The position numbers and the translations under genes were made by a program. A DNA stretch of 64,000 bases from Candidatus Rubrimentiphilum sp. (GTDB taxonomy: Bacteria > Vulcanimicrobiota > Vulcanimicrobiia > Vulcanimicrobiales > Vulcanimicrobiaceae): the NCBI GenBank assembly GCA_035710515.1, contig DASTDE010000001.1, positions 558,001-622,000 of the forward strand, read 5' to 3'. Shown here in pieces: positions 5,910 through 18,841 of the stretch. The notes under the pieces are model-generated. The model did no database searches. It was not told where the DNA came from and saw only the letters and a list, made by a program, of their open reading frames with translations. How positions within the stretch are numbered: the stretch's first letter is position 1; each line of letters opens with the position of its first letter.

Positions 5910-6371
5910 ATGTTTAAGCAAATCATCGTTCCGATCGATGGGTCGGACTGCGCCGAGAAGGCTATTGAGGTCGCTGCCGTGCTCGCCAAGGAACAGGGAG
6001 CGACCTGCACGGTGTGCATGGTCGTCGATATTGCCCAGGCGGCGGGATTAGGTTTCGCCACGCCGGAGCTCGTGAGCGGCTGGCTGAAAACCGTCCAGAC
6101 GCAAGCTGAAGTGGTAGTGCTCGAAGCGGCCGCGCGCTTGATGGTCAAAGGCGTACCGGCAAAAACCGAGGTTGTCGAAGGCCATCCAACCGATGCGATC
6201 CTTCAAGTCGCCAAGAAACATCGCGGCGACATTATCGTGATGGGAAGCCATGGCCGCACCGGCTTGCGCCGTTTGTTTTTGGGGAGCGTAGCTGAAAGCG
6301 TATTGCGTAGTGCCGATATCCCGGTGCTCGTCGTACGCCAAACCGGCGTGAAGGCGGCGCAAGCCGCCTAG
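5910..6371 (+). CDS. Universal stress protein, UspA family
   Basis: The 153-residue cytoplasmic protein begins with IIVPIDGSDCAEKAIEVA. It ends with the nucleotide-binding loop GSHGRTGLRRLFLGSVAE and then ADIPVLVVR, matching the G-2x-G-9x-G-(S/T) ATP-binding pattern of ATP-binding Usp proteins. Such proteins help survival under energy, oxidative or DNA stress. It stands alone, with its stop codon sharing four bases (CTAG) with the convergent response-regulator gene. The start is supported by family length and by a -10-like element six bases upstream. Confidence 0.93.
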   Translation: MFKQIIVPIDGSDCAEKAIEVAAVLAKEQGATCTVCMVVDIAQAAGLGFATPELVSGWLKTVQTQAEVVVLEAAARLMVKGVPAKTEVVEGHPTDAILQVAKKHRGDIIVMGSHGRTGLRRLFLGSVAESVLRSADIPVLVVRQTGVKAAQAA

Positions 6372-6736
6372 GACGAAAGCGCATCGTTGACGATGCGCAC
6401 AAGTTCCTCCGGCTCCGACGGCTTCGGAATGACGTGCTCGACGCGCGCGACGTGCATGAAGTCGCGCAGCGCTGCATCGGGGCGCGTGGCGGAATAAAGC
6501 GCGATCCTTGTGTCGCGCGTGCCGGGATCTGCACGCAGCGCCTTAACGAGCTCAGTGCCGCTCATTCCCGGCATGAACAGATCGACGACAATAAGGTCAG
6601 GCACTAAGTCGTGCGCCAACTGCAATCCCTCGGTGCCGTCGGCGGCTTCGAATACCTCGTGCCCGTGCGGTTGAAGAACGGCGGCGACGAGCAAGCGGTT
6701 TGCGGCCTCGTCATCGACAACCAAGATCTTAGACAT
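6368..6736 (-). CDS. Single-domain response regulator (CheY-like)
   Basis: This 122-residue receiver domain has the acidic pocket VVDDE (D8, D9), phospho-acceptor D52 in VVDLFMPGMSG, the conserved Ser/Thr region YSATR and the Lys loop IPKPSEPEE. There is no output domain, so it probably signals by protein contact or relays phosphate. Its ATG overlaps the stop region of the upstream receiver gene by 8 bp, and the pair follows a histidine kinase. All three genes are read in the same direction as one unit. Confidence 0.88.
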   Translation of the reverse strand: MSKILVVDDEAANRLLVAAVLQPHGHEVFEAADGTEGLQLAHDLVPDLIVVDLFMPGMSGTELVKALRADPGTRDTRIALYSATRPDAALRDFMHVARVEHVIPKPSEPEELVRIVNDALSS

Positions 6737-7118
6737 GCGTCGAGCGGCGATGTTCGGGCAAGAACGCGTCGATCTGTTTGACGAATGCGGTGGGTTCGAT
6801 CGGTTTGGCAATGTAGCCGCTAAATCCGGCCGCCAGAATCTGCTCGCGGTCGCCCGCCATTGCGAGTGCCGTGACGGCGATGACAGGCGTATCGAAAGCG
6901 TCCACGCCTTCCTTTAAGCTTCGAGCAATCGCAAAGCCGTCCAGCTCCGGCATCAAGATGTCGGTGATGATGGCGTCGTACTCGTTGTTGCGCGCTGCCT
7001 CTAGGCCGGCACGCGAATCGGCGACGCCCTCCGCGGTGTGTCCAAACGCTTCCAGCAGATAGACCATCAAATCCAGATTTGCGCGATTGTCGTCGATGAC
7101 TAGAATCCGGGCCGGCAC
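6729..7118 (-). CDS. Single-domain response regulator (CheY-like)
   Basis: This 129-residue receiver domain begins ILVIDDNRAN. Its phospho-acceptor is D53 (ITDILMPELDGF), with the switch residue in VIAVTALAM and the Lys loop YIAKPIEP. The sequence resembles the receiver modules usually attached to hybrid kinases, but here it is a free protein encoded 4 bp after a PAS histidine kinase, which is the likely phosphodonor. Two successive receivers after one kinase suggest a split hybrid or a branched relay. Confidence 0.88.
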   Translation of the reverse strand: MPARILVIDDNRANLDLMVYLLEAFGHTAEGVADSRAGLEAARNNEYDAIITDILMPELDGFAIARSLKEGVDAFDTPVIAVTALAMAGDREQILAAGFSGYIAKPIEPTAFVKQIDAFLPEHRRSTHV

Positions 7119-7122
7119 GTCG

Positions 7123-8223
7123 CTACCGAAGCGGCACGGTCAGCGTAAACGTGCTCCCCTTTCGCGGTTCACTTTGTACGTTCAGGCTGCCGCCGATCAG
7201 CGCCGCCAGCTGTTGGCTCAAATAGAGCCCAAGCCCCGTCCCTTCAAAGCGGCGCGTGCTCGAGGTATCGAGTTGCTCAAAAGCTTCAAAAAGCCGTGCC
7301 TGGTCTTGCGCGCTTATGCCGATGCCGGTATCGGCAATGGCTATCTCGACAAGGGCAGCGTTGCCCGATATTTTCCGCGTGAGCTCCACGCGGATCGCAC
7401 CCTTCTCCGTGTATTTAATGGCATTGTTGGTGAGATTGAGGAGAATTTGGTGAAGGGCGCGCCGATCCGTCGTGATGACGATATCGTTCCCGGGGGCAAG
7501 AATCTCCAGTGCCAGACCTTTCTCTTCCGCGAATGAACGCAGACCTGTTGCCACTTCGTCTATGACTTGCTGAACGATAACGGGCTCCAGGTGCAGTTCG
7601 ATCTTGCCCGATTCGATCTTTGCCAGATCGAGCATGTCATTGATGAGTGAGAGAAGATGACGCGCGCTCGATTGTACGATCTGCAGCTGCTTTTTTTGCT
7701 CGTCGGTAAGCGGGCCCGGGAGCTGCATCAGTAGCGTGCCGGTAAAACCGATGATGGCATTAAGCGGCGTCCGCAGCTCGTGGCTCATTCCGGCGAGAAA
7801 TCGATCCTTTGCGAGGCTGGCCTTTTCCAGTTCGGCATTCTTTTCTTGTAGCGCGCGCTCGAAGTGCTTGCGCTCGGAGATGTCGCGAATTGCGCTGGAA
7901 ACCAGCGTACCTTCGGTGGTTTCGATCGGGCTGAGGCTGATCTCGACCGGGAACTCACTCCCGTCCTTATTCAAACCATAAAGGTCGAGGCCAACACCCA
8001 TCGGGCGCGTGCGCGGCGCTTGGAAAAATCCGTCGCGGTGGCCGCCGTGTTTGGCACGCAAACGCGCGGGAACGAGTTTCTCGACGGCTTGCCCAAGCAG
8101 CTCTTCGCGGTTATATCCAAAGAGTTTTTCTGTTTGGGCATTTACGAGCACGATTTTGCCTTGCCGGTCGACGATGACCATGGCGTCCGGCGCGGACTCA
8201 AGGAGATCGCGGAAACTGTCCAT
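7123..8223 (-). CDS. Cytoplasmic PAS-domain histidine kinase
   Basis: The 366-residue protein has a PAS domain (about 5-118: [20 protein letters not shown] and the PAC-type end [13 protein letters not shown]). A coiled linker follows, then the DHp helix with phospho-acceptor H148 in [15 protein letters not shown], then the ATPase domain with N-box [14 protein letters not shown]1 DTGIGIS and G2 [11 protein letters not shown]. There is no membrane segment or signal peptide, so it senses an internal cue. The PAS sequence is close to those of oxygen/redox or energy-type sensors, but no haem or flavin residue can be assigned. It heads a three-gene unit with two receivers. Confidence 0.92.
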
Positions 8224-9982: not shown

Positions 9983-10459
9983 TTATGCGGGGTGCTTGGC
10001 GAGAAGTGTTTTCGAAGCTTCCTCGTTGCAGAAGCGTGTTTCCATGATCCGCGCTATTTGCTCCAGGAGCGTACGCGCGGTCGCCGCAGCAATCCTGGAG
10101 CCCACGAGCAGATCAAAGGCTTGTCCGAACGTGCCTAGCGGCGGTGTGTATTCGCCGCGCAGCTCGAGTATCGCGCTACGGTAGCTCTCGTCGGCACGGA
10201 CGATGATTTCGCCGTCGAAATCGGGGTAAGGTCCGCCGTCTTTCGGAGTCCAATGCACGAGCCACGGTTCGTCGAACCGCATGGGATCTTCGCCGCGCTC
10301 GTACGTGACCAGGACGGGTTTTTCCAGCGTTCCAGCTTTAAGGGTGAGCGTAACCGTGCGCTGATTGTCGACGACGCCTTGCAGCGCGCCGTGAAGGTAT
10401 TCGCGGGCACGTACATACGGGCAATTCGTCCTGTAGCGTTCGTAGACGCGGGTCGTCAT
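9983..10459 (-). CDS. SRPBCC-like protein, paralogue A
   Basis: This 158-residue protein matches two others in this window (17920-18375 and 18386-18841). Shared features are an N-terminal NCPYVRAREYL, a central FDEPWLVHWTP, GGPYPDFDGEIIVRAD, and a C-terminal long helix after LRGEYTPPLG with GSRIAAATARTLLEQIA. The pattern of strands, a PPLG turn and a long amphipathic helix resembles the START/SRPBCC fold, which binds hydrophobic ligands; this assignment is by eye. The frame is open to 10594, but alignment with the paralogue sets the start at the ATG at 10459. It is followed by the four-helix membrane protein gene. Confidence 0.68.
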   Translation of the reverse strand: MTTRVYERYRTNCPYVRAREYLHGALQGVVDNQRTVTLTLKAGTLEKPVLVTYERGEDPMRFDEPWLVHWTPKDGGPYPDFDGEIIVRADESYRSAILELRGEYTPPLGTFGQAFDLLVGSRIAAATARTLLEQIARIMETRFCNEEASKTLLAKHPA

Positions 10460-10566
10460 AATGAGCCATTCTGCCGTGCTCGCGAGAATCGCCAAGGACC
10501 ACTTTGGGAAGAACCGAAGAAGCTCGCGCTCACACGCTCTTCCAAGGAGCTCGGTAAAGTTTGCCA

Positions 10567-10698
10567 ATGCTGCCGCGAGAGAAAGGGCCGCCACAGGACG
10601 AACCGCTCCCGGGAACGCTGGCCTTCGTCTTCACGATGGGCGCTGTTTTTGCGATCCTGTGGTTCTTGATGTTCGTCTTGCTGAAGTCGCGCTGGTAG
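10567..10698 (+). CDS. Cytochrome c oxidase subunit IIa-like small membrane protein
   Basis: The 43-residue product starts MLPREKGPPQDEPLPGTLAF and is then one hydrophobic helix (GAVFAILWFLMFVLLKSRW). This size, an N-terminal PxGTLA-like segment and a single helix are typical of the subunit IIa of ba3-type oxidases, which supplies a helix missing from their short subunit II. The stop codon lies one base before the start of the subunit II gene. An in-frame TAA at 10555-10557 limits the start to TTG 10561 or ATG 10567, and AAGGAG lies at 10544-10549. It is small enough to be missed by automatic gene callers. Confidence 0.82.
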   Translation: MLPREKGPPQDEPLPGTLAFVFTMGAVFAILWFLMFVLLKSRW

Positions 10699-10699
10699 C

Positions 10700-11167
10700 A
10701 TGCACGTTCATAAGTACGAACGCTGGTGGATGACATTTGGAATCGTCATGCTGCTCGTTTTCCTGGCGACGATCGGCTTTGCCGCCTTCGCCGACAACAT
10801 GAATCCGCCGAGTGGCTTACAGGCGATCGATCCCACGAAGGTTGCGCAGATACCGCCGTTCGATCATCCGGGCCTGCGCCGTTTACCGGATGGAACCTAC
10901 GAAGCCTATTACGTCGCCGAAGTTTTTGCCTTCAATCCGCAAACGCTGACGGTCCCCGTCGGTAAGAAAATCACGTTTTACGTCACGAGCCCCGACGTCG
11001 TGCACGGCTTCTTCATTCCCAAGACGGACATTAACATGATGGCGGTTCCGGGCTGGGTGAACTCAGACTCGCACGTCTTTACGAGCAAGGGGACATACCT
11101 CTTGATCTGTCACGAGTATTGCGGCATCGGCCACCAGAACATGTTTGCAAAGATCGTGGTGCGATGA
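10700..11167 (+). CDS. Cytochrome c oxidase subunit II, ba3 type (CuA)
   Basis: This 155-residue protein has one N-terminal membrane anchor (MTFGIVMLLVFLATIGFAAF) and a periplasmic cupredoxin domain. The complete CuA site is visible: H102 (VVHGFF) and C137-HEY-C141-GIG-H145-QN-M148. The Glu of the CxExC motif is present. Short, single-helix subunit II proteins belong to B-type (ba3) haem-copper oxidases. It accepts electrons from a periplasmic carrier and passes them to subunit I. The gene lies one base after the subunit IIa-like gene and overlaps subunit I by 4 bp (ATGA). Confidence 0.94.
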   Translation: MHVHKYERWWMTFGIVMLLVFLATIGFAAFADNMNPPSGLQAIDPTKVAQIPPFDHPGLRRLPDGTYEAYYVAEVFAFNPQTLTVPVGKKITFYVTSPDVVHGFFIPKTDINMMAVPGWVNSDSHVFTSKGTYLLICHEYCGIGHQNMFAKIVVR

Positions 11168-12777
11168 TCCTCCGAGAGAACCGGGTCGTCATCGCGCACA
11201 TTTACACGGCGACAGCCGCCATCGTCGTCGGTGCGTTCTTCGGCGCGTTGCAAGGGCTCTCGCGCGCGACTGTGTTTAACGCGCCTGCATGGTTCGATTA
11301 CTACCGGATCCTCACGATGCACGGCGTGCTGATGGCATTAGTCTTTACCACGTTTTTCATCACGGGGCTGGCGCTCTTCGTAACCTACCGGTCGATCCCG
11401 CGCGAGCGAAACACGACGCTCGGCTGGGCGGGCTACTGGGTGATGCTCGCCGGCGTGTTGATGGCCGCGGTCGAAATTCTGGCCGGCAACGCGACGGTGC
11501 TCTACACGTTCTATGCACCGCTCAAGGCAAGTCCCTGGTTTTACGTCGGCGCGGCGATCTTCATCATCGGCACGTGGGTTATCGCGGCCGAGATCTTTGG
11601 AAACATTCTTTGGTTCCGCAAGAACAACCCCGGAATGCCGGTACCGCTGCCTGCATTTACCGCGGGCGCAACGTTCCTCATGTGGTGGATCGCGACGCTA
11701 GGCGTCGTCGGCGAGATGTATCTCCTGATTCCTTGGGCATTCGGCTGGACGCACGGCGTCAACGTCATGCTAACGCGTATGCTGTTTTGGTACTTCGGCC
11801 ACCCGCTCGTCTACTTCTGGATCATGGGCGCTTATATTTGCTGGTACAATATCGTCCCGAAGTTCTACAACGGCAACCTTTTCAGCGACGGCCTGACACG
11901 GCTCACCTTCATCATGCTGCTCTTGCTCTCTACGCCGGTCGGCATTCATCACGAGTTCATGGAGCCGGGCATTTCGGCAACGTGGAAGATGCTGCACACA
12001 ATCACGACGTACGGAGTGGCCATCCCATCCTTCATTACGGCGTTTGCTATCTTCGCGTCGTTCGAATTGGCCGCGCGGCGTTTGGGCAAACGAGGTTTTT
12101 GGCAGACCGTGCAATCGCTGCCGTGGAAGAACCCGGCGTTCTGCGGGCCCGCCTACGGCATGCTGCTGTTTATTCTCGGCGGCTTCGGCGGCTTGGTAAA
12201 CGCCTCGTATTCGATGGACTCGCTAGTCCACAATACGATTTGGATTGTCGGCCACTTCCACGTAACAGTCGGCGGCCCGGTTGCGCTCACGTTTTTGGGC
12301 ATCGCCTACTGGATGATTCCCAAGCTTACCGGGCGAGCGTTATGGAAACCGGCTTGGGCGCTTTGGCAGACGCGTCTGTGGTTTATCGGCATGCTCCTGA
12401 TGTCGTTTTCAATGCATATCGCGGGGCTGATGGGCGCGCCGCGCCGCACAGCGGAAATCAGTTACTTCGGATCGGCGCCGAACGAATGGGCTGCTTATAA
12501 CGCAACCGCTGCTGCCGGCGGACTCGTGCTGCTTACCAGCATCGTCATCTTTGCGTGCGTAGCAGTAGGGACGCTCCTCGCCAACAAAAAAGGCGAAGAC
12601 ATGACCGTCGAGTTCGCGCAGCCGCTCGAAGGATCGGAACGTGCGCCCGCCATGCTGCAAGCGCTTTTCCGGTGGGGCCTTGTGGCATTGGTCGCAGCTG
12701 CCCTCGCGTATGCCGGCCCGCTCTTGGAGATGTTGCACAATCCAGGCTTCCCCGCGCCGGGGATGCGCACGTGGTGA
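11164..12777 (+). CDS. Cytochrome c oxidase subunit I, ba3 type
   Basis: The 537-residue polytopic protein carries the haem-copper oxidase core. A low-spin haem ligand is at H53 (TMHGVLMALVF). The CuB ligand H212 is followed by the cross-link Tyr216 (GHPLVYFW), the CuB pair is H261-H262 (GIHHEFMEPG), and the haem ligands are H363 and H365 (VGHFHVTVGG). The GHPLVYFW form, with no Glu of the D-channel, and the short subunit II place it in the B family, which reduces O2 to water with high affinity. The ATG at 11164 overlaps the subunit II stop. Its own stop overlaps the GTG of a response regulator. No subunit III gene follows. Confidence 0.95.
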   Translation: MILRENRVVIAHIYTATAAIVVGAFFGALQGLSRATVFNAPAWFDYYRILTMHGVLMALVFTTFFITGLALFVTYRSIPRERNTTLGWAGYWVMLAGVLMAAVEILAGNATVLYTFYAPLKASPWFYVGAAIFIIGTWVIAAEIFGNILWFRKNNPGMPVPLPAFTAGATFLMWWIATLGVVGEMYLLIPWAFGWTHGVNVMLTRMLFWYFGHPLVYFWIMGAYICWYNIVPKFYNGNLFSDGLTRLTFIMLLLLSTPVGIHHEFMEPGISATWKMLHTITTYGVAIPSFITAFAIFASFELAARRLGKRGFWQTVQSLPWKNPAFCGPAYGMLLFILGGFGGLVNASYSMDSLVHNTIWIVGHFHVTVGGPVALTFLGIAYWMIPKLTGRALWKPAWALWQTRLWFIGMLLMSFSMHIAGLMGAPRRTAEISYFGSAPNEWAAYNATAAAGGLVLLTSIVIFACVAVGTLLANKKGEDMTVEFAQPLEGSERAPAMLQALFRWGLVALVAAALAYAGPLLEMLHNPGFPAPGMRTW

Positions 12778-13481
12778 ATAACGGCGGCCCGTCCGGCGCC
12801 GGCAAGCGCATCCTGATTGTCGACGACGAAGCGCAGATAGGTGAGGTTCTGAGCGCGTACCTCCAACAGGAATCGTTTGAGGTTGTCGTTTGTCAAACTG
12901 TCGCTACGGCATTGGCCGAACTCGAGCGGCAAAGGCCCGACATGATGATTCTCGACATCACGCTGCCCGACGGCAGCGGGCTAGACATATTGCGCCGCGG
13001 AGTCAAATCCCATCGCATTCCGACGATTATGTTGACCGCCCGCAGCGACGAGGTCGATCGGGTAGTCGGTTTGGAGCTCGGTGCGGACGACTACATCGTG
13101 AAGCCGTTTTCGCCGCGAGAGGTGGTTGCACGCGTTCGCGCCGTCATGCGCCGCGTCGACAGGGAAGCCGAAGACACAAGCCAGGCGTTGCGAGTCAAAG
13201 ACCTGGAAATCGACGAAGGCGCTCACGAAGTGCGCGTGGCGGGGTCAGTTGTGCCGATCACGCCGGCAGAGTTCCGGATCCTTCAGGTGCTCGCGCAGAA
13301 TGCCGGGCACGTACTCACCCGCGCGCAGTTGCTGGACCTCGTTCACGACGACGGGAGCATCTTCGAGCGCACGCTCGACCGTCATATCAACAACCTCCGG
13401 CGCAAGATCGAGCCCAATCCCGAGGACCCCGTCTATGTCGTCACGGTGTACGGGGTCGGCTACAAATTGCGCAAAGACTAA
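12774..13481 (+). CDS. OmpR/PhoB-family response regulator
   Basis: This 235-residue protein has a receiver domain (RILIVDDEAQIG, phospho-acceptor D61 in ILDITLPDGSG, Lys in IVKPFSPRE). Its winged-helix DNA-binding domain runs from about 140 to 232 (ITPAEFRILQVLAQNAG, FERTLDRHINNLRRKI, and the wing VVTVYGVGYKL). The GTG start at 12774 overlaps the oxidase subunit I stop (GTGA), so it is translated with the oxidase. It probably controls the oxidase or the neighbouring cupredoxin/porin genes. No full histidine kinase is encoded beside it; only the small DHp-like protein follows. Confidence 0.93.
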   Translation: MNNGGPSGAGKRILIVDDEAQIGEVLSAYLQQESFEVVVCQTVATALAELERQRPDMMILDITLPDGSGLDILRRGVKSHRIPTIMLTARSDEVDRVVGLELGADDYIVKPFSPREVVARVRAVMRRVDREAEDTSQALRVKDLEIDEGAHEVRVAGSVVPITPAEFRILQVLAQNAGHVLTRAQLLDLVHDDGSIFERTLDRHINNLRRKIEPNPEDPVYVVTVYGVGYKLRKD

Positions 13482-13795
13482 TGAATAAGAAGCTCCTTCT
13501 CGCACTCGACCTCTGCATGGCGGAGGATTGGGACGCGGCGAAACTCAGCCTCGAAGGCCTTGACGATGCGGCGGCCGCCCGTTTGGCAATGCTCATAACG
13601 CTGCAGCAAGAACGCGAAAAGAACCATCTCCAAATGCTGAAGAAGGCACGCCACGAGCTGGGCAACACGCTCTCGGTGGCCCAAGCCAATCTGGAGGCGA
13701 TGCTCGATGGCGTTCTTGAGACTACGCCTGAACGATTACGCTCGATTGCGGACTCACTGCGCGCGGCCGGCGCAGTCGTACTCGACCTGAAGTAG
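13481..13795 (+). CDS. Stand-alone histidine phospho-acceptor (DHp-like) protein
   Basis: This 104-residue protein is soluble and mainly helical. Residues 40-104 look like the dimerisation/phospho-acceptor helices of a histidine kinase: ARHELGNTLSVAQANLEAML with H58 as the likely phospho-site, then a second helix ERLRSIADSLRAAGAVVLDL. No ATPase domain follows; the frame stops here. The ATG overlaps the regulator stop (TAATG), so the two are translationally coupled. It could be a phosphotransfer protein feeding the OmpR regulator, or a decoy/phosphatase for it. A sequence loss of the catalytic domain is less likely because no kinase remnant lies downstream. Confidence 0.75.
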   Translation: MNKKLLLALDLCMAEDWDAAKLSLEGLDDAAAARLAMLITLQQEREKNHLQMLKKARHELGNTLSVAQANLEAMLDGVLETTPERLRSIADSLRAAGAVVLDLK

Positions 13796-13857: not shown

Positions 13858-14211
13858 ATGAAAAGATTCTTTGGTATTGTCTTGCCTCTATTCGCCGTGC
13901 TTGTATTCGCGTCGGTTCCGGTCGCCGCGTCGAGCGCAACCCTAAGCATCACGGCGTCCGATTGGAAATTTACGCCCGGCACGATTACCGTGCATGTGAA
14001 CAAGCCGGTGACCTTGCAGCTAACCTCCAGTCAAGGCGTGCACGGCTTGGCATCGCCCGAGCTGGGCATTAACAACACGATGATCGTTCCGAACGGCCAT
14101 GTGTCGGTAACGTTTACGCCGAAAAAACTCGGAACGTACGTCATTCATTGTTCGCTCATGTGTGGCGCGGGACACGCCAACATGAAGCTCGTCGTGAAAG
14201 TCGTCCGATAG
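13858..14211 (+). CDS. Secreted CuA-motif cupredoxin, copy 1
   Basis: This 117-residue protein has a signal peptide (FFGIVLPLFAVLVFASVPVAA) and a single cupredoxin domain. The ligand pattern is that of CuA: H62 (GVHGLAS) and C98-SLM-C102-GAG-H106-AN-M109. True subunit II proteins have Glu between the two Cys; here that position is Leu, but the Glu binds through its backbone so CuA may still form. There is no membrane anchor, so it would be a free periplasmic electron carrier. Two paralogues lie at 14728 and 16388. It follows the oxidase and its regulator on the same strand. Confidence 0.86.
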   Translation: MKRFFGIVLPLFAVLVFASVPVAASSATLSITASDWKFTPGTITVHVNKPVTLQLTSSQGVHGLASPELGINNTMIVPNGHVSVTFTPKKLGTYVIHCSLMCGAGHANMKLVVKVVR

Positions 14212-14219
14212 GCGCCGGT

Positions 14220-14654
14220 ATGGTCCTGCCGTTGCCGGACGCTGACGTCGAACGGCTGCTGAGCGCCCAGCGGGTCGGGCGTATCGGTTGTTACGCGGAC
14301 GGCCGCACGTACGTCGTGCCTATAGCGTACGCCTATGTTGGCGGCTGCGTTTACGCCCATAGCACGAACGGCGCGAAGGTCCGTATGATGCGGAAAAATC
14401 CGAACGTCTGCTTTGAGGTGGATTGCGCCGAGACGTTTTCCAATTGGAGCAGCGTGATTGCCTGGGGCACCTATGAGGAACTCCACGGCGAACCGGCGCG
14501 CGAAGCGATGCGGATGCTCCTGCTGCACTTCTTGGATCAAAAGGCGCGGCCGGCGGCGCACTCCCTGGCGCCCGATCGCCCCGGCATTTCCGAGGGCGAC
14601 GCCGTCGTCTACCGCATCCGCCTCACCGAAAAGACCGGCCGCTTCGAGTCCTGA
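14220..14654 (+). CDS. Pyridoxamine 5'-phosphate oxidase-like flavin-binding protein
   Basis: The 144-residue protein shows the split-barrel flavin fold: LLSAQRVGRIGCYADGRTYVVPIAYAYV in outline, then YAHSTNGAKVRMMRKNPNVCFEVD and a WSSVIAWGTYEEL strand. This pattern is common in small FMN- or F420-binding proteins of the PNPOx family. It is unlikely to be the PLP-biosynthetic enzyme, which is longer. It sits 8 bp after the first cupredoxin gene and is followed by the second, so it may have a redox role in the island. Substrate unknown. No signal peptide, hence cytoplasmic. Confidence 0.83.
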   Translation: MVLPLPDADVERLLSAQRVGRIGCYADGRTYVVPIAYAYVGGCVYAHSTNGAKVRMMRKNPNVCFEVDCAETFSNWSSVIAWGTYEELHGEPAREAMRMLLLHFLDQKARPAAHSLAPDRPGISEGDAVVYRIRLTEKTGRFES

Positions 14655-14727: not shown

Positions 14728-15102
14728 ATGAGAAACCTTGTTTACGCGGCCACGTTCCTGGCTATATCGGGCCTGCTCGCGATTCCGACTTTTGTCAGCG
14801 CGCAGACCGATTCGACTATCAACGTCGTCGCTTCCAACTGGAAATTCACCACGGACTCGGCCTCGCCCGGAACCGTTACGGTGCATCTCAATCAGACGAC
14901 GACACTACGCGTCACATCGAAGGAAGGCGCGCACTCGATCGGATCGACCGCGCTCGGCATTCCTGAAACCATTTTGCTGCCGGGCAAATCCGTTACGCTG
15001 ACGTTCACCCCGAAGAAAGTCGGCACGTACGAGCTGCATTGCAACCTTCCGTGCGGACCCGGTCATCCCGACATGAAGCTCATCGTAAAGGTAGTGGAAT
15101 AA
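14728..15102 (+). CDS. Secreted CuA-motif cupredoxin, copy 2
   Basis: This 124-residue protein has a signal peptide (ending near FVSAQ) and one cupredoxin domain. Predicted CuA ligands are H69 (GAHSIG) and C105-NLP-C109-GPG-H113-PD-M116. It shares the strand NVVASNWKF and the end MKLIVKVV with copies 1 and 3. The stop overlaps the start of the downstream porin-cytochrome gene (TAATG), so the two are made together. This fixed pairing, repeated at 16388/16732, suggests that the cupredoxin takes electrons from the outer-membrane cytochrome and passes them on in the periplasm. Confidence 0.86.
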   Translation: MRNLVYAATFLAISGLLAIPTFVSAQTDSTINVVASNWKFTTDSASPGTVTVHLNQTTTLRVTSKEGAHSIGSTALGIPETILLPGKSVTLTFTPKKVGTYELHCNLPCGPGHPDMKLIVKVVE

Positions 15103-16310
15103 TGAAAAAACTGCTGCTTGCAACAGCGGTTTGCGCGTTCGCCGTGCTGGGCCTTTCGGCCCAGCGCGCGAACGCGATGCCGCCGTTCGCACAATCCTAT
15201 GGAGTTGACTGCAACACTTGTCACACGATGGTCCCGGCGCTTAACGCGTACGGGCGGTATATTCAAAGGACCGCATACGCCGGCTTGAATTATCACGTGC
15301 TGAGGAGCTCGTCGCCATTTTGGATCAGCGAGCGCCTTCGCAGCAAGAGCACCGGCAGTCTGGATCGCTTGCGCCCCAATTTCAAGACCACGGCTGGTAA
15401 TGTGACCGTCGATGCAGTCGGCGCGCTCGGTCCGGCATGGACCTATCGCATCGAGCAGTCGCTCTACAGCAACAACATCGGCGGATCCGTCATGGGCCGC
15501 GCATGGGTAGGCTACAGCAACATCTTCCAGCGTCACGGTCATATCTCGGTTGGGAAATTGGATCCCGCCGTTCCGTCCTTCATGGCCGGCTGGCAAGACA
15601 CCACCGGCTTCGGCGGCAGCACCGGACTCAGCGTCGGCAAGCACAAGTATGCGTTCAGCAGCCCGCGCTGGGGCGCGCGCTTCGACTACGATGCCGAGAA
15701 CTTTGCCGTCGCGCTCTCTTGGGGAGCCGGCACAAGCGGCTTACTGCAAGCGGGAGACTTCAGTGTAAACCCTGGAACCGATAAGGTGTTCGACTGGACG
15801 GTTTCGTACGCGAATCCCGGCAAGCCGTTCGAAGCCGGCATGTACGGAGCCATGGGCGGGTTCGAGGTTTCGAACAAAATTCTGGATCGCTATAGCTTGG
15901 CGGGCTTCTACGCGCAACGCGATCCGTATCGCGGTTTCCCCGGAATCTTCGCCTACTATCAAATCTCGAACGATTCCAATCCTGGGTCCGCGCCGGTTGG
16001 TTCGCCGAAAAACGCGCTGCCGATTCCGGTAACCAGCCACAGCTACGCGTTCGAGATCTACCAAGGGTTCTTCAACGACCAGATCATGCTCGGATACCGT
16101 CCGCTCGAAATCGTGCAGTCGGGACTCGGCCCGATAACGCGGTTCGGCAACATCGACTTCGCCTCACGGATCCCGCACGCTCCGTATCTGTTCTTCAATG
16201 CGGAAGCGTCGTTCGGCGGAAGCTCGGCCGCGCCGTTCGGAAGGCCGACGTGGCAGTACGGACTGCGCTGGGCCGGTCCGATAGGGGACAACCCCTTCAA
16301 GATCCACTGA
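15102..16310 (+). CDS. Cyc2-like outer-membrane monohaem porin-cytochrome, copy 1
   Basis: The 402-residue protein has a signal peptide ending at about residue 25. One haem site follows at once: MPPFAQSYGVDCNTCHTMVP with C37 and C40-H41, then ALNAYGRYIQRTAY. The remaining 340 residues alternate polar and hydrophobic positions, are rich in Gly, Tyr, Phe and Trp, and end in aromatic strands, as expected for a beta-barrel. A PxFA-x-G-x2-CxxCH-x3-PxLN-x-(F/Y)G N-terminus on a 400-residue barrel is the layout of Cyc2-type fused cytochrome-porins, some of which oxidise Fe(II) at the cell surface. The donor here is not known. The start overlaps the cupredoxin stop. Confidence 0.78.
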   Translation: MKKLLLATAVCAFAVLGLSAQRANAMPPFAQSYGVDCNTCHTMVPALNAYGRYIQRTAYAGLNYHVLRSSSPFWISERLRSKSTGSLDRLRPNFKTTAGNVTVDAVGALGPAWTYRIEQSLYSNNIGGSVMGRAWVGYSNIFQRHGHISVGKLDPAVPSFMAGWQDTTGFGGSTGLSVGKHKYAFSSPRWGARFDYDAENFAVALSWGAGTSGLLQAGDFSVNPGTDKVFDWTVSYANPGKPFEAGMYGAMGGFEVSNKILDRYSLAGFYAQRDPYRGFPGIFAYYQISNDSNPGSAPVGSPKNALPIPVTSHSYAFEIYQGFFNDQIMLGYRPLEIVQSGLGPITRFGNIDFASRIPHAPYLFFNAEASFGGSSAAPFGRPTWQYGLRWAGPIGDNPFKIH

Positions 16311-16387: not shown

Positions 16388-16729
16388 ATGAAAAAATCTC
16401 TCTCCCTCGCCCTCATGCTTGCGTTTATGAGCCCACTTGCCGCGTGGAGTCACCCAAGCATCGATGTCGTAGCGTCCAATTGGAAATTTACGCCCGATAC
16501 GATTACCGTTCATCTCAACGAACCGACTACGTTACGATTGACTTCGAGCGAAGGAGTTCACGGGATCGAATCGGCCGACTTGGGCATTCCCAAAACAATC
16601 ATCCCCCCGCAACGCTTTGTGACTGTTGCGTTCGTTCCCAAGAAGTTAGGGACTTATAAGGTATACTGCGCGGTCATCTGCGGCGCGGGGCACCCCAATA
16701 TGATACTTATTGTAAAGGTCGTGCAATAG
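16388..16729 (+). CDS. Secreted CuA-motif cupredoxin, copy 3
   Basis: This 113-residue protein has a signal peptide (LSLALMLAFMSPLAAWS) and one cupredoxin domain. Predicted ligands are H58 (GVHGIES) and C94-AVI-C98-GAG-H102-PN-M105, the CuA spacing without the usual Glu. An AAGGA Shine-Dalgarno sequence precedes the ATG, unlike copies 1 and 2. It is followed after 2 bp by the second porin-cytochrome gene, repeating the pair at 14728/15102. The two pairs probably arose by tandem duplication followed by divergence. Confidence 0.86.
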   Translation: MKKSLSLALMLAFMSPLAAWSHPSIDVVASNWKFTPDTITVHLNEPTTLRLTSSEGVHGIESADLGIPKTIIPPQRFVTVAFVPKKLGTYKVYCAVICGAGHPNMILIVKVVQ

Positions 16730-16731
16730 TC

Positions 16732-17919
16732 ATGTTCGATCGCATGCAACGCGCCATTCTATCGGCGGGACTAGTCGCTGCTGCCCTTACCCTTTCGGTG
16801 CCGGCACCGGCTATCGCCATGCCTATTTTTGCAAAGGCCTACGGTTTGCAGTGCAGCGCCTGCCACACGCTGGTGCCGGCGCTCAACGCGTACGGCCGGT
16901 ACGTTCAGCGCACCGGTTACGCTTCGCTCAATCGCGATGTGCTAAAAGATCACTTGCCGTTTTGGCTCGGCGAACAAATCAACGGCGACAGTACCGGCGG
17001 TGTTAGCCGGAATTCGGACACTGCCAAGATTTCGGCGGGGAACGTAGCCATCCACGGCGCGGGTTATCTGGCGCCCGACATCACCTATCACGTTCAGCAA
17101 TGGCTGCTTGAAAGCGATCGAACCGGCGGTTCTCTGGATACCGCCTGGGTAACCTATAACAACCTCTTTCATCGCGACGGCCACCTGTTTGTTGGAAAGA
17201 TTGAAGCGCCTGCGCCGTCGCCGTTCAGTCAATGGTTTGATATTTCGGCCTTTTCATCGGCCGGCATCACCGTTGGCGAACACACGTATCAGCTGGACGC
17301 AAACCGCTGGGGCGTCAAACTCGCTTACGTTCACGGTCCATGGGACGTCGAGGGCGGTTGGCTGTTGAGCGGAAACGGTTTACCCGGTGCTCCCGATTTT
17401 GATACTGTGCCCGGAACAGACAAGACGTTTCAATGGAAGCTCGCTAATGCATCAGGTGACCGTCCGTACGAAGCCGGGTTGTATGGAAGCTCGGGAAGCT
17501 TTATCGTCTCGACCGGCGACGCCGACCGGTACAATTCTATCGCCGGATACTTTCAGCTCGATCCGAACTCGCACGGAGTCCCCGGTTTCTTGTCGATCTA
17601 CCAGTTAGGAAACGATAGCAATCCGGGACTTGACGCAGACGGAAATCAACTCGCCGCTGCGCGCAGCCGTGCATTCAGCGCGGAGATCTACGAACCGCTA
17701 TTTAACAACAATGCCCTGATTGGCTACCGAACCGAGTACACGGACGACGGTTTAGGTACGCTGACTCACTTCGGCAATGTCGACTTCGCCTTCACGGTTC
17801 CTCACGTGCAGTACTTGCATGGGTACATCGAAGCCTCACTTGCGGGGAGTTCCGGAACCGAAAATGACACGCCGGCGTGGCGCTGGTTCCTTTGGTGGAC
17901 GACCCCGCTTGGCCGCTGA
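16732..17919 (+). CDS. Cyc2-like outer-membrane monohaem porin-cytochrome, copy 2
   Basis: This 395-residue paralogue of the gene at 15102 has a signal peptide (AAALTLSVPAPAIA) followed by MPIFAKAYGLQCSACHTLVP with haem ligands C41, C44 and H45, then ALNAYGRYVQRTGY. A barrel-like region follows, sharing the blocks GHLFVGKIE (GHISVGKLD in copy 1), GLYGSSGSF, NDSNPGLDADG and HFGNVDFAFTVPH. The conserved N-terminal haem block and the more divergent barrel fit a common electron-transfer function with different surface properties. It ends directly against the convergent SRPBCC-like gene with no gap. Confidence 0.78.
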   Translation: MFDRMQRAILSAGLVAAALTLSVPAPAIAMPIFAKAYGLQCSACHTLVPALNAYGRYVQRTGYASLNRDVLKDHLPFWLGEQINGDSTGGVSRNSDTAKISAGNVAIHGAGYLAPDITYHVQQWLLESDRTGGSLDTAWVTYNNLFHRDGHLFVGKIEAPAPSPFSQWFDISAFSSAGITVGEHTYQLDANRWGVKLAYVHGPWDVEGGWLLSGNGLPGAPDFDTVPGTDKTFQWKLANASGDRPYEAGLYGSSGSFIVSTGDADRYNSIAGYFQLDPNSHGVPGFLSIYQLGNDSNPGLDADGNQLAAARSRAFSAEIYEPLFNNNALIGYRTEYTDDGLGTLTHFGNVDFAFTVPHVQYLHGYIEASLAGSSGTENDTPAWRWFLWWTTPLGR

Positions 17920-18375
17920 CTAAGAGCTGACGCCGCCTCGTCTGCTCGCCCTTTCAGCGTCCCACTTTCGTTCGATCCGCGCGCACAAATCGGCGAGCAC
18001 TCTTTTCATTGTGATTCGAGCTATCTGCTGTCCCGCAACGGCATCGAAAACTGCACCGGAAAATCCAAATGGCGGCTTGTATCGGCCATGCAGACTTAAT
18101 TCGGCGCCGCGGCCGCTGGGCCGCGCCGTCAATACACCTTGGAAATCCGGAAACATGCCGCGATGACGCGGCTTCCAGGCCAGCAGCAGCGCATCGTGGA
18201 GGCGAACCTCATCGCTACGATCGTCGACGACGGCAGTTCGAGCGTCCACGCTTTCCGAAACGACCGGCACCGGTGAGACGTGCATCCCGGGGCTCTCGTT
18301 CATCGCCTTCTCGGCAAATTCAATCACCGCGGAAAATGGACACGCGCAATATCGCGTAGCGCGAATTTCCCTCAT
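17920..18375 (-). CDS. SRPBCC-like protein, paralogue C (divergent)
   Basis: This 151-residue protein is distantly related to those at 9983 and 18386. It keeps the N-terminal CACPF, the block FPDFQGVLTARPSG, the turn GRYKPPFGFSGAVFD and the final helix QQIARITMKRVLADL. The central region has an extra segment around MHVSPVPVVSE. The frame is open to 18486, but AGGAGA eight bases before the ATG at 18375 marks the start. It lies 10 bp after the paralogue gene at 18386 and is probably co-transcribed. Ligand and role unknown; START/SRPBCC fold suggested by pattern only. Confidence 0.65.
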   Translation of the reverse strand: MREIRATRYCACPFSAVIEFAEKAMNESPGMHVSPVPVVSESVDARTAVVDDRSDEVRLHDALLLAWKPRHRGMFPDFQGVLTARPSGRGAELSLHGRYKPPFGFSGAVFDAVAGQQIARITMKRVLADLCARIERKWDAERASRRGGVSS

Positions 18376-18385
18376 ACCCGGTCTC

Positions 18386-18841
18386 CTATTTTTTCGCCGC
18401 TTCCTCTTCGTTGAACCGCGTTTCCATATGATCCGCGATTTGCTGAAGAAGTGCGCGCGCGGTGGTCGCAGCGATACGTGAACCAAGTGCGAAATCGAAT
18501 ACTTCCCCGACTGCGCCCAGAGGCGGCACGTACTCTCCGCGCAATTCGAGTAACGAATTGCGATAACTATCGTCTGCGCGCACCGTGAGCTCGCCGTCGA
18601 AATCGGGATATGGCCCGCCGCCCTCCGGCGTCCAACGGATGAGCCATGGCTCGTCGAAATGCATCGCGTCGCTGCCGTGCTTGTACGTGACCAAAACTGG
18701 TTTCGCCAGCGCTCCTGCGGTGAGGCCGAGAGTCGTAACGCGGTTATCCTTGGCGACGGCTTCCAGGGATTCGTGCAAATACTCGCGCGCGCGATGATAC
18801 GGGCATTTTGTGGGATGGCTTTCGTAGACGTGCGTTGCCAT
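18386..18841 (-). CDS. SRPBCC-like protein, paralogue B
   Basis: This 151-residue protein is clearly similar to the one at 9983. Shared blocks are KCPYHRAREYLHESL, FDEPWLIRWTPEGGG, PYPDFDGELTVRADDSYR, LELRGEYVPPLG and GSRIAATTARALLQQIADH. The fold looks like START/SRPBCC, with a long C-terminal helix. The repeat of this family on both sides of the oxidase/porin island, always on the minus strand, suggests they belong to the same functional group. It may be a lipid- or cofactor-binding or co-regulatory protein. An AAGGG sequence precedes the ATG. Confidence 0.68.
   Translation of the reverse strand: MATHVYESHPTKCPYHRAREYLHESLEAVAKDNRVTTLGLTAGALAKPVLVTYKHGSDAMHFDEPWLIRWTPEGGGPYPDFDGELTVRADDSYRNSLLELRGEYVPPLGAVGEVFDFALGSRIAATTARALLQQIADHMETRFNEEEAAKK

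Follow-up and report, generated by a model that had tools for sequence, protein, structure and literature searches.

We propose that a 104-amino-acid protein encoded in an oxidase operon of Candidatus Rubrimentiphilum sp. is a histidine kinase cut down to its DHp hairpin, and that it now serves as a histidine phosphotransferase in a chain leading from a PAS kinase (HK7123) through stand-alone receivers (REC1 and REC2) and the DHp protein to an OmpR/PhoB-type response regulator (RR). We give this reading, which is built on sequence comparisons, a probability of about two in three. Loss of the ATPase (CA) domain in relatives tracks a second kinase module with few exceptions, which suggests that the remnant passes phosphate in a longer signalling chain. 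Positions refer to the window, the whole 64,000-nucleotide stretch that was analysed (Table 1).

Table 1 Positions of the oxidase operon and of the HK7123 module in the window.
Feature	Position	Strand	Description
43-aa ORF directly upstream of coxB	10567..10698	+	weak FixP_N match below cut-off
coxB, oxidase subunit II	10700..11167	+	COX2 periplasmic domain, 155 aa (Pfam)
coxA, haem-copper oxidase subunit I	11164..12777	+	COX1, E 1.6e-87 (Pfam)
RR, OmpR/PhoB-type response regulator	12774..13481	+	phospho-acceptor Asp61
DHp-only protein, 104 aa	13481..13795	+	His58 in HELGN, without CA domain
HK7123	7123..8223	-	PAS 12-117, HisKA 138-206 (His148), HATPase_c 253-365
REC1, stand-alone receiver	6729..7118	-	Asp53; 4 nt past the HK7123 stop
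REC2, stand-alone receiver	6368..6736	-	phospho-Asp kept; ATG in the last part of REC1 (8-nt overlap)

A DHp-only protein in an oxidase operon

The operon has the order coxB-coxA-RR-DHp, with an overlap at every junction. The coxB and coxA genes overlap by ATGA. At the coxA/RR junction (ACGTGGTGAATAAC) the coxA stop TGA lies within GTGA and the RR starts with the GTG at 12774, while at the RR/DHp junction (GACTAATGAAT) the RR stop TAA overlaps the DHp ATG at 13481 (TAATG). The DHp ORF ends with TAG (13793-13795). An earlier note on this DNA had described an OmpR-type regulator overlapping oxidase subunit I by GTGA and itself overlapped, through TAATG, by a 104-residue protein, and both junctions were as described. 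The RR, with Pfam matches to Response_reg (E 5.5e-27) and Trans_reg_C (E 3.6e-23), is an ordinary OmpR/PhoB-type regulator. No NCBIfam oxidase model matched coxA or coxB at its cut-off, and we therefore leave the oxidase type unnamed. The short ORF in front of coxB is possibly a small oxidase subunit.

Three cupredoxin-like ORFs lie downstream of the operon, one recognised by Pfam (13858-14211) and two by their likeness to it (14728-15102 and 16388-16729). Interleaved with them are two CxxCH proteins of ~400 aa (15102-16310 and 16732-17919), which had no Pfam match at E≤0.001. The same gene cluster contains a pyridoxamine-oxidase-like ORF (Pyridox_ox_2; 14220-14654) with a weak similarity to NimABCDEF far below the cut-off. 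Three ORFs (9983-10594, 17920-18486 and 18386-18841, minus strand) have similar stretches in common by eye and are apparently paralogues.

We confirmed that the 104-aa protein is DHp-only and has no ATPase domain. Pfam found no HATPase_c (CA) domain in the protein, and a six-frame search of ~1.4 kb downstream of its gene with a CA profile detected no remnant (best E 0.25); the same profile gave E 1.8e-52 on a relative that has the domain. A CA remnant was likewise not found downstream of the DHp gene of a relative (G001), with which the window protein shares 58% identity. An assembly or contig-edge artefact is rejected, as the window gene lies inside a 1.2 Mb contig.

Pfam HisKA matched residues 51-100 with E 3.3e-4 and 21.1 bits, which does not reach the curated cut-off of 26.9, and L041, which belongs to the same family and is a complete kinase, scored just 20.9 bits. 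At E<0.001, NCBIfam matched nothing but the DHp portions of two BaeS models (E 7.1e-7 and 2.7e-4). Pfam gave no match to Hpt (PF01627) at E≤10, and Pfam, NCBIfam and PDB sequence searches gave none to the Spo0B family. The eight PDB sequence matches at E≤10 included no kinase. The protein carries a HisKA-type box, with H58, the acidic E59 at +1 and N62 at +4.

AlphaFold2, run on the monomer, predicted a helical hairpin (pLDDT 96.8) formed by helix 30-75, which carries His58, and helix 83-103, with two short extra helices ahead of it. The model agrees with the DHp helix pair with His58 that the note had recognised. The top Foldseek matches were the PhoR DHp, AdeS, HK853 and the SrrAB kinase, all weak (E 0.84 or worse). 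VIA-align matched the model to LvrB (Z 8.5), the PhoR DHp (Z 8.4, rmsd 1.7, 69 aligned) and HK853 (Z 8.1, rmsd 1.9, 74 aligned), with other hairpins reaching up to Z 7.3; the HK853 alignment, as read from the aligned range, starts with His58 opposite HK853 His260. Helical hairpins match widely in such comparisons, which are suggestive only, and the fold by itself offers moderate evidence for a DHp; homology is the stronger evidence. A mini-DHp of 58 aa in G047 (L074) was predicted to be a bare hairpin (helices 2-23 and 31-49, pLDDT 92.2).

CA domain state and the second kinase in relatives

At E≤0.01, 58 of 98 relatives matched the DHp protein, some via ordinary kinases. A DHp profile search at E≤1e-6 matched 79 of the 117 genomes of the class, and 78 were left after one (G020) was scored as an ordinary kinase. 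The DHp and CA profiles were built from the same genomes that were searched, and the genomes are mostly drafts, in which an absence is weak evidence. Among the matches listed in the scan of genome contigs for relatives, at least one relative, an ordinary complete kinase, came from a Chloroflexi MAG.

Sorting 93 DHp genes by their CA domain revealed a full domain in 39, the front part only in 10, a stub (G005 and G006) or PAS tail (G025) in 3, none in 35 and a fusion to a second kinase in 6. One duplicate view, one cut CA-less gene and one cut complete gene were left out of the sort. G077, whose DHp gene is cut by a contig end, was dropped, and G133 (complete type, cut) counts among the 31 complete-only genomes below and stays out of the residue counts. 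Relatives of the DHp gene are often whole sensor-less kinases (39 of the 93 genes), probably soluble as judged from size and domains. One of them, L041, occupies the same place and has a HATPase_c match of E 2e-28. The RR-coupled genes at this place grade from a full CA through its front part and a stub to none. The window gene and those of G001 and G007 are CA-less, and G005 and G006, from the window's genus, keep a tail of ~75 residues. In 36 of 48 RR-coupled homologues, the DHp start and the RR stop share 1 or 4 nt, a count affected by the rule for picking gene starts, which favours closeness to the RR stop. This overlap, the 58% identity to the G001 gene and the low dN/dS of related CA-less pairs argue against a chance ORF.

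Phylogenetic analyses revealed that CA state changed repeatedly. A tree of 48 RRs needs 8 changes between full and not full, 6 of them forced by well-supported branches, and the best tree of 70 rows needs 9, again with 6 forced. The trees are unrooted; we infer that the changes were losses, because remnants exist and the full CA domains are homologous.

The earlier note had neither the HK7123-REC1-REC2 donor module nor the origin of the DHp protein from a kinase minus its catalytic half. The module is on the strand opposite to coxB, 2.5 kb before it and with other genes between, which weighs against the proposed chain. At many loci, a CA-less DHp gene has as a neighbour, in some cases in back-to-back orientation, a PAS kinase gene with two stand-alone receiver genes behind it. 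HK7123 was detected in 52 of the 117 genomes at E≤1e-60, a threshold that in several genera admits matches of 43-48% identity, possibly not orthologues. It is present in each of the 40 genomes that have no DHp other than CA-defective ones, in two of them trivially, as fusions (38/38 without these), and a receiver adjoins or is fused to it in all 40. Every examined genome without a complete DHp copy also has a second kinase-receiver module. Among genomes with only complete DHps, HK7123 is present in 4 of 31 (G042, G067, G071 and G075). With kinship ignored, the association gives a Fisher p of ~1e-15. In a kinship-aware test on the 70-row RR tree, HK7123 changed the same way in five of six well-supported independent pairs, opposite in none and tied in one (p ~0.06); on a quick tree, four of five pairs agreed, none opposed and one tied (p 0.125). 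The kinship-corrected support for the link is suggestive only.

Three other kinases of the window genome, used as controls, showed no link: 33/40 versus 22/31 (p 0.27), 38/40 versus 29/31 (p 1.0) and 38/40 versus 27/31 (p 0.39). Two of these are weak controls because they are near universal (107/117 genomes). Chance association of HK7123 with CA loss is rejected on the three null controls and on independent pairs that point the same way, though with p not below 0.05. HK7123 and the DHp gene were in the same fetched stretch in 26 of the 40 CA-defective genomes. In the other 14 they were not, and in 10 of these they are on different contigs, so the link is more than physical.

Six mixed genomes were not counted: G025, G034 and G130, which have HK7123, and G061-G063, which lack it. 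The latter have degenerate and CA-less DHp copies beside complete ones, which counts against the link. Each of G062, G063 and G061 (L054, L055 and L056) has three tandem RR-DHp cassettes, one complete, one with part of CA and one CA-less. HK7123 without any detected DHp occurs in G003 (56% complete), G104 (79% complete), G015 (38% identity) and G065 (97% complete), the last with HK7123-REC1 present, which speaks against the proposed chain.

Five genomes encode DHp, PAS kinase and receiver in one chain (six ORFs; two in G025 and one each in G034, G051, G130 and G135). All six have a receiver match behind the kinase and share the variant box HD(I/L)RN, and the two examined by Pfam have PAS, HisKA, HATPase_c and Response_reg. 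Living lineages include those with both kinases alongside each other, with only a portion of CA, with a stub, with no CA and with the DHp fused back onto the donor kinase. G042 and three others have the donor module as well as a complete kinase, so an order with the donor first and CA lost afterwards fits. It is close to an even chance, and slightly less, that in this one class CA was stripped from the kinase several times independently, turning a two-component system into a four-step phosphorelay, with these in-between stages in living lineages, giving bare DHp phosphotransferases (~60-120 residues) free of CA remnants that control a terminal oxidase.

Proposed phosphotransfer and its alternatives

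In the proposed chain, HK7123 would autophosphorylate on His148, presumably upon a signal sensed by its PAS domain, and pass the phosphate to REC1/REC2. The DHp protein, probably as a dimer, would accept it from the receivers on His58 and hand it to Asp61 of the RR encoded in the coxBA operon, and the phosphorylated RR may then adjust oxidase expression at a target promoter. The search for an Hpt domain (PF01627) covered 34 of the 40 CA-defective genomes; it found none in the window genome and 12 others and at least one in the remaining 21, which counts against the relay, and also at least one in 11 of 12 complete-only genomes searched. In the 13 genomes with no PF01627 match, REC1 and REC2 are left without another phosphotransferase of the Hpt family. 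In a genome with no Hpt match, phosphate from a kinase and its receivers would need some other phosphotransferase to get to a DNA-binding regulator, and the natural candidate is a DHp that has its His intact and is encoded beside the RR. The DHp protein appears to have the features of a pseudo-kinase phosphotransferase, as it is kinase-derived, has lost its CA (if the changes ran in that direction) and has kept the phospho-His. It is found together with a kinase and a receiver that could act as intermediate, both in the window (6368-8223) and in 40/40 genomes.

Residues along this chain are conserved. His58, the residue singled out by the note, is kept in 39/39 complete, 32/35 CA-less, 13/13 degenerate or stub-tailed and 6/6 fused proteins. 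Asn62 is kept in 39/39, 34/35, 13/13 and 6/6, respectively, and residue 59 is acidic in 34/35 CA-less proteins. The phospho-Asp of the partners is unvarying (REC1 47/47, fused ones included; REC2 32/32; RR 89/89), as is the kinase His of HK7123 (52/52).

The note had left the function between a hub, a phosphatase and an inhibitor. Our comparisons favour phosphotransfer. In the main rival, an unlikely one, the DHp protein is a phosphatase devoted to the RR, HK7123 phosphorylates the RR without an intermediate, and REC1/REC2 are phosphate sinks or have a role elsewhere. According to PMC3510030, the DHp of EnvZ or NtrB alone suffices for phosphatase activity, which CA greatly increases and for which the box must have its Thr/Asn. 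The near-invariant Asn62 of the CA-less proteins suits a phosphatase, and a link to another kinase would be equally expected of one. That HELGN keeps this Asn counts against the relay. However, the same source describes the acidic residue beside the His as unneeded and the His as merely enhancing in HisKA phosphatases (PMC3510030), and the CA-less proteins keep both. Because the acidic neighbour is kept though unneeded, phosphorylation of His58 is favoured over a pure phosphatase. Nor does a phosphatase role account for the fact that the phospho-Asp of REC1/REC2 does not vary, or for the hybrids and fusions with a receiver after the kinase.

It is much less probable that the DHp protein only binds, acting as an inhibitor or decoy that sequesters the RR or the kinase. 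PhyT is reported to sequester PhyR as well as transfer phosphate (PMC5898713), and the three CA-less proteins that lack the His are the tandem-cassette copies of G061-G063, which persist despite its loss (Ala, Ala and Asp) and are possibly decoys or decaying. Elsewhere, His58 and Asn62 are kept, against a role in binding only.

Split DHp/CA kinases are known, and another gene could supply the CA domain in trans; this is very improbable here, and we reject it. A free-standing kinase-type CA was not found in the window genome at the sensitivity of the search. Its 10 HisKA domains each have an adjoining HATPase, and the four other HATPase matches are a MutL-like and a GyrB-like ORF (both assigned by reading the sequence), a lone HATPase_c_2 protein and a SpoIIE-HATPase_c_2 protein.

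Least probable of all is a decaying kinase pseudogene: CA is eroded to differing degrees in relatives, but the ORFs are intact, the RR coupling is kept, seven residues (H58, N62, A69, E72, D76, G77 and R85) are invariant in 23 diverse DHps, and dN/dS is well below 1 in related CA-less pairs (0.06-0.32, some with saturated dS and one near-copy pair unscorable). By this measure the related CA-less genes are under purifying selection; the window gene, whose relatives there are <72% identical, is in no scored pair.

Comparison with known phosphotransferases

PhyT is the closest in logic to the phosphorelay that we propose. In the Pak-SdrG-PhyT-PhyR system of Sphingomonas melonis Fr1, as presented in PMC5898713, phosphate moves from a kinase to a stand-alone receiver, then to a degenerate kinase acting as His phosphotransferase and on to a regulator, and the authors suspect that PhyT originated from a histidine kinase via degeneration of the catalytic domain. 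The DHp relay would have the same kinase-receiver-phosphotransferase-regulator order. PhyT is described as membrane-anchored, with HRxxN, a degenerate ATPase domain that is kept and a role in the general stress response (PMC5898713). In contrast, the DHp protein has HExxN and no CA, and is encoded beside an oxidase operon.

Spo0B, which keeps a C-terminal domain and serves Spo0A in sporulation, would resemble the DHp protein as a kinase-derived His phosphotransferase. It is described as a dimeric His phosphotransferase between Spo0F and a regulator that may derive, itself, from a kinase through loss of the domains for signal detection and ATP binding (PMC12826061). ChpT, in the CckA-ChpT-CtrA system, is reported as a pseudo-kinase phosphotransferase to the DNA-binding CtrA in which the ATP lid is replaced (PMC3433190, PMC9981736). 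It resembles in kind the intermediates here that keep part of CA; its retained Bergerat-like fold, cell-cycle role and hybrid-kinase donor, as given in these sources, are unlike the window protein. Spo0B and ChpT are older examples than PhyT, and PMC9981736 calls them pseudo-HK. EnvZ domain A is likewise a bare DHp, active without CA, but it is a laboratory construct with phosphatase activity (PMC3510030), whereas the window protein is a natural gene product.

Our literature searches on this organism group and on an oxidase phosphorelay found nothing on this system. Spo0B, ChpT and PhyT are each one case thought to be kinase-derived, while here the change appears several times in one class. 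The class offers forms in between, a fusion form and a candidate condition, namely that a donor kinase and a receiver are present. With proteins of ~60-120 residues, one can test in what order the events took place and how small a phosphotransferase can be and still work. The oxidase operon gains a candidate control circuit. By analogy, the DHp protein would work like Spo0B, ChpT and PhyT, reduced to a bare DHp. It differs from all three in having no CA remnant at all, in its repeated origin, in its refusion to the donor kinase and in its place in an oxidase operon.
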